Origin: Desulfofundulus salinus
GTDB taxonomy: Bacteria > Bacillota > Desulfotomaculia > Desulfotomaculales > Desulfovirgulaceae
Direction: 5' to 3'
DNA: 64,000 bases
NCBI RefSeq assembly: GCF_003627965.1
Contig: NZ_RBWE01000001.1
Location: 1,285,995-1,349,994 of the forward strand
Part shown: positions 1 through 6,068 of the stretch, one piece after another
How positions within the stretch are numbered: the first letter of the stretch is position 1
How the letters are laid out: each line of letters begins with the position of its first letter
Position numbers and translations under genes: made by a program
The notes under the pieces: generated by a model
What the model was told of the DNA's origin: nothing
Database searches by the model: none
What the model saw: only the letters and a program-made list of their open reading frames with translations

Positions 1-78
1 TACCAGGTAGATAGGCCGGGCGTGTAAGCCGGGTAACCGGTTGAGCGGACCGGTACTAATAGGTCGAGGGCTTGACCA
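1..78 (+). rRNA. rrl: 23S ribosomal RNA, 3' end (partial)
   Basis: The first bases carry the highly conserved 3' end of bacterial 23S rRNA, including the ACTAATAGGTCGAGGGCTTG block close to the mature end. Only the last part lies in the window; the gene begins upstream. The 5S gene follows about 160 bases downstream in the same direction, as expected for an rRNA operon. The exact mature 3' end is placed by eye. Confidence 0.93.
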
Positions 79-83
79 GAATA

Positions 84-111
84 GAAGTCGGAGGTCGGAA
101 GTCAGAGGTCG
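84..111 (+). repeat. Two tandem 14-bp units in the 23S-5S spacer
   Basis: Positions 84-97 (GAAGTCGGAGGTCG) and 98-111 (GAAGTCAGAGGTCG) are adjacent copies differing at one base. They lie in the transcribed spacer just after 23S. No tRNA gene is visible in this spacer. The function is unknown; such short repeats may simply be spacer microvariation. Confidence 0.6.
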
Positions 112-235
112 GATTTAAGAAGGAAATCGCTTACGCGATTTCCGGGGAAATTCGACTGAAGAGATCCGGTTTCCGGCTGAAAAGGCGAACTAAACTCCGC
201 TGTGAAGTTTTGAGGGAATACTAAAAGAATAAGTT

Positions 236-352
<117 letters not shown>

Positions 353-362
353 AATATTTTTC

Positions 363-398
363 ATACCCCCGGTCTATAACCCGGGGGTATTGTTATTT
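363..398 (+). terminator. Intrinsic terminator of the rRNA operon
   Basis: A perfect 10-bp stem (ATACCCCCGG at 363-372 with CCGGGGGTAT at 381-390), an 8-base loop and a T-rich tail (TGTTATTT). It follows the 5S gene by about 10 bases and closes the rRNA operon. Confidence 0.88.
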
Positions 399-542
399 GG
401 TGCGCTCACGAATTGAACGACTTGAGCGAGCAAAAAGCAAGACCAGCAAATATGGAAAGTGATTTTTAGGCTACTAAGTCACATATTGGATTAATTTCCC
501 ATAGTATGGTTTAGGAAAATGTTTAGTGACGGAGGTTTTTTG

Positions 543-1493
543 GTGTACCCGTTTCGTTATAAACAGTCTTTCGAGAACAACTGGTATTATGTGACCGATC
601 CTTTGGGTTTCCAGAGCCTGCAGGAGCACGGCAGGCTGATTACTTACCTGATTCCCTTCTGGTACGGCGTGACCTGGGAGGGCGGCCTTGCCGATCAATC
701 TGACCCCCGCTCCCTGGACCTCATTCGCCGCTTAAATCTGCCCGTTTTGGCTATCGTGCATAACTATGCCAGTCCGGAATACCGCACCCTCATTCACGCC
801 TTGTTGACCGATGATACCCTGCGCCGGGCACTGGTCAACAGCATTTTAAACATGCTCCGGCGCACCAGGTTTGCCGGGGTGAATATTGATTTTGAATTCG
901 TGCCCCCCGAGGACCGGCCATATCTAACCAAATTTATGACCGAACTTTATCAGGTCCTGAAGCCGGAAAGGTTTTTAACCACCATTTCCGTACCGGCCCA
1001 ACTGGATGACAATCCCCGCCATCCATTTTCCGGGGCTTTTAGTTACCCGGAACTGGGCGTGGTGAGCGACCAGGTGTACCTTCTGGCCTATGATGAACAC
1101 TTTGCCATGCCGGGGCCGATTGCTTCCATCGGTTTTGTGCAACGGGTTTTAACTTATGCCCTTTCGGTAATCCCCCGCATAAAAATCCGGCTGGGCATTC
1201 CCGTCTACGGTTATGATTGGACAGAAGGGGTGAACATACCGGAAACGCTATCCTACCGGCAGGCCATAGAGCGGGCCAGGGAACAAGGGGTTGCCCCCCG
1301 TTATGACGAAGAGGCCCAGGAATGGACCTACACCTACCAGGTGGACGGCGAAACCCACATCGTATGGTTTGAAGATGCCCGCAGCTTTGCCGCCAAACTG
1401 GCCCTGGTGCGGCGGGAAAACTTACGGGGAATTGGCGTGTGGCGCCTGGGTCTTGAGGACTCCCGTATCTGGGCTCTGGTTGGCACGCTTTAA
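543..1493 (+). CDS. Glycoside hydrolase family 18 protein
   Basis: A single-domain GH18 TIM-barrel protein of about 316 residues, related to the catalytic domain of the spore cortex hydrolases YaaH/SleL but without LysM repeats. The catalytic strand reads FAGVNIDFEFV, matching the GH18 DxxDxDxE region with the acid Glu at its end. Other barrel pieces such as LAYDEH and GIPVYGYDW also fit the family. A GTG at 543 preceded by GGAGG at 531-535 is the best start; an ATG at 519 in the same frame lacks a ribosome site. No signal peptide is visible, so it may act on glycans from inside, for example in the spore or forespore. The substrate is not determined. Confidence 0.85.
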   Translation: MYPFRYKQSFENNWYYVTDPLGFQSLQEHGRLITYLIPFWYGVTWEGGLADQSDPRSLDLIRRLNLPVLAIVHNYASPEYRTLIHALLTDDTLRRALVNSILNMLRRTRFAGVNIDFEFVPPEDRPYLTKFMTELYQVLKPERFLTTISVPAQLDDNPRHPFSGAFSYPELGVVSDQVYLLAYDEHFAMPGPIASIGFVQRVLTYALSVIPRIKIRLGIPVYGYDWTEGVNIPETLSYRQAIERAREQGVAPRYDEEAQEWTYTYQVDGETHIVWFEDARSFAAKLALVRRENLRGIGVWRLGLEDSRIWALVGTL

Positions 1494-1574
1494 CTTTTGT
1501 TATCACACGGGGTTAGTCTATAAAATAATTAAATCGATTAGATAAAGGAAATGTGTAACCAGGTAAAGAAATGT

Positions 1575-1605
1575 AAGACCTCAAAACACCAGGAGGTCTT
1601 TTTTT
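1575..1605 (+). promoter_or_regulatory. Terminator-like hairpin that contains the ribosome binding site
   Basis: AAGACCTC (1575-1582) pairs with GAGGTCTT (1593-1600), followed by seven T residues up to the ATG at 1606. The Shine-Dalgarno AGGAGG (1591-1596) sits in the 3' arm and loop edge. The element therefore looks like an intrinsic terminator whose closing arm is also the ribosome site of the next gene. It could terminate readthrough, mask translation, or both; which one operates is inference. Confidence 0.6.
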
Positions 1606-2877
1606 ATGACTGACTATCGCAAGTTGTGGTCTGATTTGGGAATGGACCTGGAAAAGCATGACCGGTTAACCAGTGCTTTACCTCTAATTTATGAAGAGGT
1701 TTACCTTCAGCAACCGGAACGCCCGCAGGCCATGGAGTACTTCGACCTGGTGGTGGCCGAAATTCATAGCCTGAGGATCGTCGAGCTGGTGGAGCACCGC
1801 CGGCGGGGAGGCAAAGTTTGCGGGGCCTTTTGCGTGTTCGTACCCGTGGAGATTATTCGTGCTGCCGGAGCCGTTGCCGTCGGCCTGTGCGGCGGGTCCC
1901 AGTTCTGGGTTCCCGACGGGGAAAGGGTTTTGCCCCGCAACCTTTGCCCGCTGATTAAAGCGTCGGTAGGTGCCCGTCTTAGCGGTACCTGTCCCTATTT
2001 CCAGTCCTGCGACCTCTTAATTGGCGAAACCACCTGCGACGGCAAAAAGAAAGCCTGGGAAGTCCTGGGTGAATATGCTCCCGTCTACGTAATGGACCTG
2101 CCCCAGATGAAACGGCCCCAGGACCTGGCTGCCTGGCGCGGGGAGATCGAGTTGTTCCTGGCCAGAATAGAAGAGTTAACCGGCTGCCGGGTGACCCCCG
2201 GGAGGCTGGCGGAAGAAATCCGCCTCCAGAACCGGCTGCGTCAAGCACTGGAACGCCTTTACCATACCCGCAAAGCCGATCCGGTGCCCATAAGTGGGAA
2301 GGATGCCCTGCTGGTTACCCAGGTTAGTTTTTACGACGATCCCCGTCGCTTCATTGATAAAACGGAAGCCCTGGTCGCGGAAGTCGAGGCACGCATTGCC
2401 TCCGGGCAGGGGGTATTTCCACCCGGAGCCCCGCGCATTCTTGTAACCGGCACTCCGATGGCCATTCCCAACTGGAAGCTGCATCACATTATTGAGACGG
2501 CCGGCGCCGCGGTGGTATGCGAAGAAACCTGCACCGGTACCCGCTTTTTCGAGCACCAGGTGGATGAAACCGGACGGACTCTGGAAGAGCAGTTGCAGGC
2601 CCTGGCCGAGCGCTATCTGAAAATTAACTGTTCTTGCTTTACTCCCAACTCAGGGCGCCTTGAAGATATTTTCCGCCTGGTTGAAGCTTACCAGGTTGAC
2701 GGTGTCATCTATTATAACTTGCAATTCTGCCACGGATATGCGGTTGAATATTATACCGTGGAGAAGGCTCTCAAGGAACAGGGTATTCCGGTTATGAAAG
2801 TGGAAACCGACTATAGCGAAGAAGATACCGGCCAGCTGCGCACCCGGGTGGAAGCCTTCCTGGAAATGTTACGCTAG
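1606..2877 (+). CDS. 2-hydroxyacyl-CoA dehydratase D-component family protein (double-cubane cluster type)
   Basis: A 423-residue member of the HgdB/FldC-like family. Cysteine motifs line the protein: GKVCGAFC, RLSGTCPYFQSC, CEETCTG and NCSCFTPN, all candidate iron-sulfur ligands. A single-subunit protein next to one ATPase activator, with no second dehydratase subunit and no CoA-transferase, matches the double-cubane [8Fe-9S] cluster proteins known from Carboxydothermus rather than classic heterodimeric dehydratases. These use ATP-driven electron transfer to reduce small molecules; the natural substrate is unknown. The start ATG follows AGGAGG and a T tract. The next gene, its likely reductase, begins 27 bases downstream. 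Confidence 0.85.
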   Translation: MTDYRKLWSDLGMDLEKHDRLTSALPLIYEEVYLQQPERPQAMEYFDLVVAEIHSLRIVELVEHRRRGGKVCGAFCVFVPVEIIRAAGAVAVGLCGGSQFWVPDGERVLPRNLCPLIKASVGARLSGTCPYFQSCDLLIGETTCDGKKKAWEVLGEYAPVYVMDLPQMKRPQDLAAWRGEIELFLARIEELTGCRVTPGRLAEEIRLQNRLRQALERLYHTRKADPVPISGKDALLVTQVSFYDDPRRFIDKTEALVAEVEARIASGQGVFPPGAPRILVTGTPMAIPNWKLHHIIETAGAAVVCEETCTGTRFFEHQVDETGRTLEEQLQALAERYLKINCSCFTPNSGRLEDIFRLVEAYQVDGVIYYNLQFCHGYAVEYYTVEKALKEQGIPVMKVETDYSEEDTGQLRTRVEAFLEMLR

Positions 2878-2904
2878 CCGGCCCCGAAAGGATGAAAGAA
2901 TTTA

Positions 2905-3675
2905 ATGACCGTCCTGGGAATTGACATCGGATCCCGGACCATTGCCATTGCAGTTTTAAATGAAAGGGGAGAGCTGCTGGCCGGCCATGTAGCGGACAGC
3001 GGGCCCCGCCCCCTGGAGCGTGCCCGGGAGATGGCCGGGAACCTGTCGTCATTCCGGCGTGTAGTGGCCACGGGCTACGGGCGCCACGGCGCCCGGGCGG
3101 ATTTTGCCACCGATTTGATTACCGAGATCAAGGCCCACGCCCTGGGTGCCCGTCACCTTTTTCCCTTCTGCCGCACCGTGCTTGATATCGGCGGCCAGGA
3201 CAGCAAGGTGATCCGGTTGGACGAACAGGGCCGGGTGGTGGACTTTATTATGAACGACCGCTGTGCCGCCGGAACGGGTAAATTTCTGGAGGTGATGGCC
3301 CAGGGGTTGGGTCTACCTCTGGAGGAAATAGTAGCCGCTGCTTGTACAAGTGATGGGGAAATAACCTTAAACAGCATGTGCACCGTTTTTGCCGAATCGG
3401 AGGTGGTATCGCTGCTGGCCGCGGGCCAGCCCGTGGGGGCCGTGGCCCGGGCCGTGCTCAACTCTATTTGCGATCGTACCATGAACCTGCTCCTCCGTTT
3501 AGGTATTGAGCCGCCGGTGGTTTTCACCGGCGGGGTGGCGGCTATCCCCGGGTTACCCGCTTATTTTGCACGGCGCATGGATCTTATGGATTTGCAGGTT
3601 CCCTCGTCTCCCCAACTGGTAGGTGCCCTGGGTGCGGCCCTGTACGGGATAAAGGTAAAGAAGGCCACGGGATAG
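2905..3675 (+). CDS. BadF/BadG/BcrA/HgdC-type ATPase, activator of the upstream iron-sulfur protein
   Basis: A 256-residue ASKHA-fold ATPase. The N-terminal phosphate loop reads GIDIGSRT; a second nucleotide motif is DIGGQDSK. Two cysteines that bridge one [4Fe-4S] cluster across a homodimer are seen in DRCAAGTG and NSMCTVFAESE. The family couples ATP hydrolysis to low-potential electron injection into its partner, here almost certainly the preceding gene. An AAAGGA ribosome site precedes the ATG. The stop codon lies inside a bidirectional terminator hairpin. It could equally be called the (R)-2-hydroxyacyl-CoA dehydratase activator; partner choice rests on adjacency. Confidence 0.88.
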   Translation: MTVLGIDIGSRTIAIAVLNERGELLAGHVADSGPRPLERAREMAGNLSSFRRVVATGYGRHGARADFATDLITEIKAHALGARHLFPFCRTVLDIGGQDSKVIRLDEQGRVVDFIMNDRCAAGTGKFLEVMAQGLGLPLEEIVAAACTSDGEITLNSMCTVFAESEVVSLLAAGQPVGAVARAVLNSICDRTMNLLLRLGIEPPVVFTGGVAAIPGLPAYFARRMDLMDLQVPSSPQLVGALGAALYGIKVKKATG

Positions 3676-3692
3676 CTCCCGTGGCTTATTTA
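3664..3692. terminator. Bidirectional terminator between convergent genes
   Basis: GCCACGGG (3664-3671) pairs with CCCGTGGC (3678-3685) around a 6-base loop, followed by TTATTT on the plus strand and a pyrimidine-rich stretch on the minus strand. The stop codon of the plus-strand ATPase (3673-3675) is in the loop. The minus-strand gene ends right beside it at 3686. Confidence 0.7.
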
Positions 3693-4300
3693 CGTGCGTT
3701 CATTTTTTCCCGGAACCAGCGGTGGATGTCATCCAGGGCCGGGGGCGCCACGTAGAACACATGGATGTTCGGGGGGAACTGGACCCCGTGATCTTCCCGG
3801 ATAAAAAGCAATCCTGCTTCTCCGTCTCCCAGGGTTTCATCAATCCGGCGGGAGATATGGGCAAATCTTTTTTCGCTGGCCTCCCGGTAGAACTTGCTGA
3901 TGATATCAAAAGTTTTCTGGCTCATGACTACTGAAAGGCAATTGCCCCAATCCATACTTTCGGTAAACAGTTCCATGTCCTCGGTGGCTTCCAGGCTGGC
4001 CCCCCGGTCGCACTTTTCCTTGATGATCCGGTAGCTTTTTTCGTGAAATTTCTCAATAATGCTCAGTCCAGTCTCCCCGCTTACGGTAAGGGATTCATGG
4101 TAAATTTTTTTGATTGGCCCCATTTTTTGTTCCAGGCCGTTTAATTGCTGTTCTACCTGCTGCCAGTAAGCATTGACCTTTTCGGAAAGATCTTCCGGCA
4201 TCTCCCTGGGGGTATAAACTAAAGGCACCAGATAAATTTTTCTGCCCGCCTGAAAATTATCAATGGAAGGCTTTTCAATCCTGCCGAGCACTTCAGACAT
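3686..4300 (-). CDS. Conserved hypothetical protein, 204 residues
   Basis: I do not recognise a named domain. The protein is soluble, charged and mostly helical by composition. A central glutamate/lysine-rich stretch (about residues 45-95) could form a helical hairpin or coiled coil, and the C-terminal part contains short strand-like hydrophobic runs (GLLFIRED, HVFYVAPP). There are no signal peptide, membrane segments or metal motifs. AAGGAGG lies 7 bases before the ATG, so it is well expressed by design. It stands alone, convergent with the iron-sulfur ATPase gene, so context says little. Confidence 0.75.
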   Translation of the reverse strand: MSEVLGRIEKPSIDNFQAGRKIYLVPLVYTPREMPEDLSEKVNAYWQQVEQQLNGLEQKMGPIKKIYHESLTVSGETGLSIIEKFHEKSYRIIKEKCDRGASLEATEDMELFTESMDWGNCLSVVMSQKTFDIISKFYREASEKRFAHISRRIDETLGDGEAGLLFIREDHGVQFPPNIHVFYVAPPALDDIHRWFREKMNARK

Positions 4301-4532
4301 AACTGCAACCTCCTTGTTACCGGAACTTTGTCCCCTCTGAATATAGCATATCGCCGTGCTTTTTGCCAGCCGCCATAAACTGTCCCCTGCGGTGGAAGGG
4401 CAGCCACTAAGGTAAATCCCAAATCTCCCGCCGCTTTATAAAAACTTTCCCTTTTTCAGGAGGAACTTGTGGTTAGCTGGCGAAAAATGACAACAGGTTC
4501 TTTTTGTTGCCTAAAATCAACGGAGGATTGCT

Positions 4533-6068
4533 ATGCTGGCTATTGTGAAAAGTACGGCCCTTTACGGACTGAACGGGCAGGTAGTGCAGGTAGAGGTTGA
4601 TGTAAGCAACGGGCTGCCTTGCTTTGACCTGGTGGGGTTGCCCGATCTAGCTTGCCGGGAATCCCGGGACCGGGTGCGCGCCGCCATGAAAAATTCCGGC
4701 TTTGAATTCCCGGCACGGCGCATAACGGTAAACCTGGCCCCGGCCGACCTGCGCAAGGAAGGCCCCCTTTATGACTTGCCCATTGCCGTGGGCATTCTTG
4801 CCGCTACCGGGCAACTGGATCAGTCCGCCGTAGACCGCTATGTGTTTCTTGGTGAGCTGTCCTTGAACGGGCAGGTGCGGGGGGTGGCCGGGGTGTTGCC
4901 CAATGTTCTGGCCGCCCGGGAACAGGGTTTACGGGCGGTGGTGGTGCCCCTGGATAATGCCGCCGAAGCTGCTCTGGTCAAGGATGTACAGGTTTACCCG
5001 GTACAGAGCCTGGGACAGCTAACCCGCTTTTTGCTCGGGGAAGAGGAAATTTCACCCTATAAGGTGGATCCGGTCCTGTTGATGAACCGGGTTGACGAAA
5101 ACGGGGCGGACATGGCCGATGTGCGCGGCCAGGCCACGGTACGACGGGCTCTGGAAGTGGCGGCCGCCGGGGGACACAACCTGCTGATGGTGGGAACCCC
5201 CGGTTCGGGTAAAACCATGCTGGCCAGGAGGTTGCCGGGCATATTGCCCGATCTTACCTTTGACGAAGCCCTGGAAATTACTAAAATATACAGTCTGGCC
5301 GGGTTGTTAAAGCCCGGGGAGCCCCTGGTGACCCAAAGGCCCTTTCGCTCGCCCCATCACAGTGCCTCGGCGGTGGGCCTGGTCGGAGGCGGGCGCCATC
5401 CCCGTCCCGGAGAGATCAGCCTTGCCCATCACGGCGTCCTTTTCCTCGATGAGTTGCCGGAATTTCACCGGGACGTGCTGGAGGCTTTGCGCCAGCCCCT
5501 GGAAGATGGAGTGGTAACCATCTCCAGGGTAAGCGGTGCGGTGACCTATCCCGCCAGTTTAATGCTTGTGGCTGCTGCTAATCCGTGTCCGTGCGGTTAC
5601 CTTGGCGATCCGGTCCGGGAATGCACCTGCACCCCCTATCAGGTGCAGCGTTACCTGGGGCGTATTTCTGGCCCCCTGCTGGACCGCATTGACATCCATC
5701 TGGAGGTTCCCCGGGTGGATTATGAAGACCTGGCCCGCCGGGAGCCAGGCGAACCGTCGTCAGAGATCAAAAAGCGGGTGGAAAAAGCCCGGGCCATACA
5801 GCGCCGGCGCTTTGGTTCTTCCGGGATTACCTGTAACGCCCGCATGACCCCGGCCCAGGTTCGCCGTTATTGTTCCCTCACCCGGGAAGCCCGCTCGTTG
5901 TTTTCATCCGTTTTCCGACAGTTGAACCTGAGCGCCCGTTCCCATGACCGGGTGCTCAAGGTAGCCCGTACTATCGCCGATCTTGACGGGAGCGATGTCA
6001 TTGACGCCGCCCACCTGGCCGAAGCGGTGCAATACCGCAGCCTGGAGGCGAGGTACTGGCCAGGATAG
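4533..6068 (+). CDS. comM: YifB/ComM family Mg-chelatase-like AAA+ ATPase
   Basis: A 511-residue protein with the full family layout: an N-terminal Lon-protease-like fold (about 1-170), an AAA+ core with Walker A GTPGSGKT and Walker B LFLDELPEF, the FRSPHHSAS segment, a four-cysteine cluster NPCPCGYLG...CTC, and a C-terminal Mg-chelatase subunit lid. Characterised ComM is a hexameric helicase that aids branch migration during natural transformation; whether this organism is competent is unknown. CGGAGG precedes the ATG. The last 483 bp are present again, collinear, at 28264-28746. Confidence 0.95.
   Translation: MLAIVKSTALYGLNGQVVQVEVDVSNGLPCFDLVGLPDLACRESRDRVRAAMKNSGFEFPARRITVNLAPADLRKEGPLYDLPIAVGILAATGQLDQSAVDRYVFLGELSLNGQVRGVAGVLPNVLAAREQGLRAVVVPLDNAAEAALVKDVQVYPVQSLGQLTRFLLGEEEISPYKVDPVLLMNRVDENGADMADVRGQATVRRALEVAAAGGHNLLMVGTPGSGKTMLARRLPGILPDLTFDEALEITKIYSLAGLLKPGEPLVTQRPFRSPHHSASAVGLVGGGRHPRPGEISLAHHGVLFLDELPEFHRDVLEALRQPLEDGVVTISRVSGAVTYPASLMLVAAANPCPCGYLGDPVRECTCTPYQVQRYLGRISGPLLDRIDIHLEVPRVDYEDLARREPGEPSSEIKKRVEKARAIQRRRFGSSGITCNARMTPAQVRRYCSLTREARSLFSSVFRQLNLSARSHDRVLKVARTIADLDGSDVIDAAHLAEAVQYRSLEARYWPG

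Follow-up and report, generated by a model that had tools for sequence, protein, structure and literature searches.

We analysed a 64,000-nucleotide stretch of Desulfofundulus salinus DNA (the window), which opens at the end of an rRNA operon and continues through a glycosyl hydrolase family 18 (GH18) gene into the gene for a double-cubane-cluster protein (DCCP). The features around the start of the DCCP gene are as follows.

1 to 79, + strand: 3′ end of the 23S rRNA gene of the upstream rrn operon (Rfam RF02541)
237 to 352, + strand: 5S rRNA gene (Rfam RF00001, 113.9 bits)
363 to 390, + strand: strong terminator-like hairpin after the 5S gene, presumed rrn terminator (scan; −18.5 kcal/mol)
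519 to 1493, + strand: GH18 gene (PF00704, E = 1.3e-25)
1519 to 1540, + strand: A/T-rich block, candidate UP element roughly between −38 and −59 relative to the predicted +1 (17/22 identical to D. australicus)
1544 to 1552, + strand: −35 box AAAGGAAAT of a sigma-H-type promoter (matrix, consensus)
1565 to 1571, + strand: −10 box AAAGAAA (consensus RNNGAAT), after a 12-nt spacer (matrix, consensus)
1575 to 1582, + strand: hairpin 5′ arm AAGACCTC (sequence; 8/8 kept in D. australicus)
1576 to 1578, + strand: predicted +1 (A1576, G1577 or A1578) within the 5′ arm (from the distance to the −10 box and the purine)
1583 to 1592, + strand: hairpin loop AAAACACCAG (sequence, folds)
1591 to 1596, + strand: Shine-Dalgarno (SD) AGGAGG, 9 nt 5′ of the ATG (sequence)
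1593 to 1600, + strand: hairpin 3′ arm GAGGTCTT, holding the GAGG of the SD (sequence, folds)
1599 to 1605, + strand: T7 tract, abutting the ATG (sequence)
1606 to 2877, + strand: DCCP gene (NF040772, PF06050)
2905 to 3675, + strand: BadF/BcrAD-type ATPase (activase; BcrAD/BadFG-type) gene (PF01869, TIGR00241)

The GH18 gene ends 112 nt before the DCCP ATG on the same strand. DCCP scored 521.2 bits against NF040772 (double_cubane; equivalog cut-off 350), which upholds the name given to the gene in the original prediction, and it is presumably co-transcribed with the activase gene. When the GH18–DCCP gap was scanned, no terminator was found besides the hairpin at its end, which is itself missing from the output of the terminator scan, a program that takes loops of 3–8 only. 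Searching positions 1–5000 of the window with Rfam at the gathering score returned the 23S and 5S rRNAs alone, with no riboswitch, T-box or known leader. A short ORF that begins with the ATG at 1551 and overlaps the DCCP start was dropped from consideration, D. australicus being without an ATG there (by eye).

Shape, rarity and conservation of the hairpin

Positions 1575–1605 read AAGACCTC-AAAACACCAG-GAGGTCTT-TTTTT, and the DCCP ATG follows at 1606. The stem consists of 8 perfect base pairs closed by a 10-nt loop, the SD is split, with its first two bases in the loop and its GAGG in the stem, and the T7 tract makes up most of the spacer between SD and ATG. The original prediction had placed here a terminator-like hairpin whose T7 runs up to the ATG and which contains the SD, and it was accurate on both points. 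Folded alone, 1575–1605 gave −9.9 kcal/mol at 37 °C. The GC-rich stem with a T-tract directly after it is the shape of a Rho-independent terminator, and termination itself is predicted from this shape.

The exact hairpin pattern has a single occurrence in the genome. Our survey covered 464 kb of the same genome (20 stretches plus the window) and took in the 361 gene starts whose SD has 4 nt or more; a contiguous, Watson-Crick-only stem of at least 8 bp over the SD was found at DCCP alone (1/361), while three starts had at least 7 bp; spacers with at least 6 T were present at five starts, and DCCP was the only one to combine such a spacer with a stem of at least 7 bp. With G-U pairs unlimited, stems of at least 8 bp over the SD were found at 38 of the 361 starts. 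Among shuffles in which the last 15 nt were fixed and one G-U was allowed, 2/2000 reached the stem of the DCCP hairpin. The 101-nt region around the hairpin has an ordinary overall stability (z = −0.34), and the hairpin is no more than average when set against the T-run hairpins of the genome sample, all of them putative terminators (−7.3 to −9.8 vs. a median of −8.0, n = 87). The hairpin shape is real and locally rare.

Some relative of the DCCP protein was present in all 60 genomes searched, with one close copy in each of the nine genomes of the family. We read the upstreams of 110 orthologue loci, dropped 11 near-identical ones and counted 99. Watson-Crick stems of at least 8 bp (8–9 bp) over the SD were found in 5/99 upstreams, all from one genus (five distinct upstreams, six genomes). 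This Watson-Crick-only scan excludes D. copahuensis because of one G-U pair; allowing one G-U raised the count to 7/99 by adding D. copahuensis (9 bp) and the AT-rich locus L013 (9 bp), whose stem was reached by 86/2000 shuffles. A comparable stem is absent from the remaining 92 upstreams. The earlier suggestion that the same logic might apply in orthologues at large is not borne out by the 99-upstream comparison; what stands is that the hairpin is kept in 6/6 genomes of the genus examined, and that D. copahuensis has another one.

Five of these six genomes are near-identical in the hairpin region by descent. D. australicus retains the two arms around a longer loop. Compared with the window, D. 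australicus matches at 8/8 positions of the 5′ arm, at 6/8 aligned loop positions (plus insertions), at 8/10 of the −10/initiation region and at 14/15 from the SD to the T-tract; the other, unassigned gap positions match at 13/28, and fourfold sites of the gene are 56% identical. Since the loop, the −10 region and the stretch from SD to T-tract are also conserved, the arm is kept within a run that is kept whole. In D. copahuensis the corresponding position is occupied by another hairpin, CCTTCCCGG/CCGGGAGGG, with C and T6 after its stem, and 4/2000 shuffles reach it.

These observations bear on a possibility that we regard as unlikely, a neutral coincidence in which the start region of a promoter, a T-rich spacer and a good SD happen to pair. 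It would suit the restriction to one genus with five of six genomes alike by descent, the conservation of the whole run beyond the arm in D. australicus, the 38 starts with long stems under unlimited G-U pairing and the ordinary stability of the 101-nt region. Against it are the intact 5′ arm in D. australicus, set beside 56% identity at fourfold sites, the single Watson-Crick stem of 8 bp among 361 starts, and the presence in D. copahuensis of a second hairpin, of another sequence, at the corresponding position.

A candidate sigma-H-type promoter at the hairpin

Comparing relatives side by side, we found a sigma-H-type element, AAAGGA(A/T)(A/T)T-N12-RNNGAA(T/A), at 1544–1571, just 5′ of the hairpin. 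The sigma-H consensus given in the accessible part of PMC8510167 is RNAGGAWWW for the −35 and RNNGAATWW for the −10 region. The −35 box of the window fits the former, and its −10 region, AAAGAAATG, has two mismatches to the latter (GAAA, and the final G); GAAT is found in the −10 of D. thermobenzoicus and D. copahuensis, and a GAAA −10 occurs also in the spoVG picks of 9/9 genomes. Against RNAGGAWWT-N11/12-RNNGAAW, a consensus broadened from GAAT to GAAW after the sequences had been viewed, the promoter of the window matches at 16/16 positions. Scores of at least 15/16 were obtained in 12/99 orthologue upstreams (1.6 expected from shuffles), three of which (L037, L071, L084) come from unrelated groups and are perhaps due to chance, and scores of 16/16 in 5/99 (0.15 in shuffles), four of the five being near-identical copies from the genus. 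At least 15 was reached in four of five distinct family lineages, with differing spacers.

A matrix was built from spoVG and spo0A of the same genomes (seven unique training sites, one of which, L171, was wrongly placed), with spoIIAA left out, its motif having been found in 1/9 loci. It scored the window at 12.64, D. copahuensis at 14.18 and D. thermobenzoicus at 11.05, where scores of at least 12 and at least 11 are expected 0.02 and 0.03 times per 125 nt, respectively, on a background of the whole 400-kb sample including coding DNA, for which shuffles of orthologue upstreams are the fairer control. The scores of D. australicus (7.7) and Desulfovirgula (6.1) were low or unremarkable. SigH is encoded in 9/9 genomes. 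In the own genome the sigma-H pattern has three sites with zero mismatches, including that at DCCP, and with one mismatch it is no commoner than a reversed control (53 vs. 48). The 12-nt spacer is poorly conserved (6/12 vs. D. australicus), as expected for a promoter. Judged from the sequence, the best promoter candidate is of the sigma-H type, and both its dependence on sigma-H and its +1 are predictions.

The usual distance from the −10 box to the transcription start is 5–7 nt, which would place the start at 1576–1578, inside the 5′ arm of the hairpin. In D. copahuensis the 5′ arm lies between the −35 and −10 boxes, i.e., upstream of the predicted start.

Three further observations concern promoters. 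Another zero-mismatch sigma-H-type site (L113, G000:C1:1896238-1896265) is situated some 170 nt 5′ of a long ORF resembling, by eye, an EF-G homologue. Loci L010, L011 and L012, which belong to another family of the order, have a variant promoter, ACAGGTWAT-N11/12-ATAGAAN, 5′ of DCCP. In Lachnospiraceae and similar groups (L069, L086, L092, L093, L096, L107), a common element around TGTTACGGTA was seen by eye some 40–110 nt 5′ of DCCP and is perhaps a promoter with a regulator site.

Neighbouring genes and predicted folds

Throughout the genus a same-strand GH18-like gene lies upstream of DCCP (6/6 genomes; assigned by family profile in the window and by similar ends in relatives), a 5S rRNA gene is present upstream in 5/5 genomes scanned (all but that of L002), and the GH18–DCCP gaps hold the hairpin in 6/6 cases, with no second terminator found there. 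In D. copahuensis, same-strand ORFs lie upstream, the last of them (mnmA-like by eye) ending 106 nt before DCCP, and apart from its own hairpin no other terminator was found in the gap by the scan. In D. thermobenzoicus the neighbour on the same strand lies 348 nt upstream and there is a separate terminator-like hairpin, GCGGTCTATGCAGGCCGC plus a T-tract, and Desulfovirgula has a divergent upstream ORF with a signal-peptide-like start (by eye); the SD hairpin is absent from both. Across these four contexts, the hairpin occurs where no other terminator was found behind a same-strand neighbour, which fits a terminator for upstream RNA. In the wide set, rough automatic calls placed a terminator in just 10 of 77 same-strand gaps, so that this context rule does not generalise; the automatic neighbour strand counts (77/20/2) are likewise rough, with the strand in Desulfovirgula miscalled. 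Since the rrn operon is already followed by a strong terminator-like hairpin (−18.5 kcal/mol), little rrn read-through may arrive at DCCP, and the main source of read-through may be the GH18 unit. As to the neighbourhood itself, a GH18-like gene stands between the rRNA operon and DCCP throughout the genus (519–1493 in the window), and D. australicus (L034, 453–1022) has an extra ORF between the 5S and GH18 genes.

Folds were computed at 37 and 60 °C, and those at 60 °C were weighted more because the growth optimum of D. salinus is 55–60 °C (accessible part of PMC11206085). In RNAs from 1450, 1497, 1533 and 1560, the hairpin pair 1580–1595 was predicted at 0.85–0.99 at 60 °C; at 37 °C it reached 0.98–1.00 from 1497, 1533 and 1560, and the RNA from 1450 was predicted without the hairpin at 37 °C (0.00) and with it at 60 °C (0.85). 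The same pair dropped from 0.99 in RNA from 1533 to 0.02 in RNA from 1578 at 60 °C. Own RNAs from 1576, 1577 and 1578 would retain 7, 6 and 5 bp, with stems of −9.0, −8.5 and −4.5 kcal/mol at 37 °C and −4.5, −4.0 and −1.4 kcal/mol at 60 °C, respectively.

The consequences for the SD depended on the start. For RNA ends at 1608–1635 and 60 °C, the predicted unpaired fraction of the SD was 0.29–0.30 in long RNA and the same from 1576–1577, 0.40–0.41 from 1578, and at least 0.48 from 1579 on; for RNA to 1650, starts at 1576 or 1577 gave 0.33–0.36. As the openness changes at 1578 and not at 1576–1577, the escape of the window species from masking hinges on one nucleotide, and the gain at 1578 is modest. 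At 37 °C, the own RNA of the window was predicted to be no more open than the long RNA (to 1650, 0.19–0.23 from 1576–1579 vs. 0.28 from 1497–1560; to 1620, 0.28–0.30 for long and own RNA alike). In D. copahuensis the SD went from 0.01 unpaired in long RNA to 0.57 from the predicted start at 60 °C, and in D. australicus, whose predicted own RNA keeps about 6 bp, from 0.14 to 0.20. Escape of the own mRNA from masking is thus predicted clearly in D. copahuensis only.

The 6–7 bp that would remain from 1576 or 1577 (−8.5 to −9.0 kcal/mol at 37 °C, −4.0 to −4.5 kcal/mol at 60 °C) also invite the explanation that the hairpin masks the SD and so controls the gene's own mRNA, either as a 5′-terminal stem-loop that slows initiation or as one opened by temperature or a bound factor. 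The residual stem of D. australicus, the equal pairing of the SD in short and long RNA at 37 °C and the fully conserved 5′ arm would agree with such control. We nevertheless think it unlikely to be correct, given that the own mRNA of D. copahuensis, whose predicted start is 3′ of the 5′ arm, cannot contain that arm, that a comparable stem is missing from 92/99 upstreams, and that no Rfam family besides rRNA appeared at the gathering score.

The least probable explanation, and one weaker than a terminator or insulator, is that a sigma-A-type promoter near 1497–1526 feeds a leader attenuator, which switches between termination and read-through into DCCP: a promoter-like match of 9/12 exists at 1497–1526 and the hairpin with its T7 is terminator-like, but that match is one of 15 in 8 kb (5.2 in shuffles), three of which reach 10/12, the hairpin forms at 0.99–1.00 in RNA from 1533 with no competing antiterminator predicted, no Rfam leader was found at the gathering score, and among the 99 upstreams the hairpin in the form seen in the window was not found outside the genus. 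Attenuation of the gene's own expression, as originally proposed, therefore fares poorly, with the sigma-H-type promoter just upstream predicted to start its RNA within the 5′ arm and no antiterminator predicted from 1533.

Proposed role and known parallels

The most economical account, to which we assign a probability of roughly 0.45, is that a terminator or insulator has been fused to the DCCP ribosome site, and that transcription of the gene itself begins at the hairpin, from a sigma-H-type promoter of its own. The hairpin would act as a modest Rho-independent terminator against RNA from the GH18 gene and the rRNA operon behind it. Read-through RNA would contain the whole stem, so that part of the polymerases would halt at T7, and in RNA that passes T7 most of the SD would be paired and hence masked. 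The DCCP–activase unit would be driven by its own promoter (1544–1571), whose RNA would start at 1576–1578 inside the 5′ arm and cut the stem to 5–7 bp. Weighing against this account is that a +1 at 1576 or 1577 would keep 6–7 bp and leave the masking at 60 °C unchanged (RNA end 1608–1635). A role in quieting stray read-through RNA is more likely for the hairpin than one as a switch.

A fuller version, which we consider doubtful, holds that one hairpin both terminates and, by folding back, silences RNA from the rRNA operon and its neighbour, that with a sigma-H promoter starting within the 5′ arm it is chiefly the transition-phase sigma-H RNA that is translated into the double-cubane enzyme, and that Desulfofundulus and D. 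copahuensis, with their different stems, represent at least two origins of the arrangement within the family, each behind a same-strand neighbour without a terminator.

In Tn10/IS10 fold-back inhibition, the ribosome site is hidden in read-through transposase RNA only, which shields the gene from outside promoters. The DCCP hairpin would likewise hide the ribosome site in read-through RNA and guard against outside promoters; unlike Tn10/IS10, it has a terminator tail, and no mobile element was recognised at the locus. With an ordinary intergenic Rho-independent terminator it shares the GC-rich stem and T-tract after a same-strand gene, but it overlaps the predicted start, the Shine-Dalgarno and the spacer of the next gene.

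The nearest known parallel, by analogy, is the mechanism of phage T4 gene e (lysozyme). According to the accessible part of PMC3014915, leader hairpins of gene e, soc, 49 and I-TevI hold the ribosome site in a helix on longer upstream transcripts, and late promoters just before the ribosome site of gene e yield RNA without the 5′ strand of the helix. As in that account, the DCCP SD is predicted to lie in a helix in long RNA (at 37 °C, not in RNA from 1450). Whereas the own RNA of gene e is described there as lacking the 5′ strand, the corresponding loss is predicted for DCCP in D. copahuensis, in the window at 60 °C only with +1 at 1577 or 1578 and not at 37 °C, and mostly not in D. australicus. 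Also unlike gene e as described there, the DCCP helix is followed by T7 and is terminator-like, the gene is chromosomal and the promoter is of the sigma-H type.

Within the same family, the spo0A upstream (L171–L179) resembles that of DCCP in having a terminator-like hairpin that overlaps a sigma-H-type promoter; there, unlike at DCCP, the −35 box is formed by the 3′ arm, which is located well 5′ of the spo0A ribosome site. In 7/9 genomes this spo0A hairpin, within about 100 nt upstream of the gene (e.g., L175, L178), ends in GGAG(T/A) followed by a T-tract, and in six of the seven its 3′ arm overlaps the −35 of the sigma-H-type pick G(C/A)AGGAG(T/A)T-N11-GTCGAA(T/A), so that terminator and promoter look nested.

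The accessible part of PMC8450116 does not mention read-through fold-back, and we do not claim the DCCP arrangement as unpublished, our literature search having been conducted mostly without subscription journals. The DCCP hairpin is unusual locally and of a known kind. In Calderihabitans maritimus, the accessible part of PMC7306483 reports the DCCP–activase pair as 5.5- and 4.5-fold down under CO.

A hairpin before a gene is not necessarily a leader switch, and the promoter must be located first. If the account given here is true, DCCP would provide a chromosomal, non-phage start site that distinguishes its own RNA from read-through RNA. In a thermophilic spore former, an enzyme family whose physiological role is unclear would also come under the control of a transition-phase sigma factor, and this would tell when the enzyme is needed.
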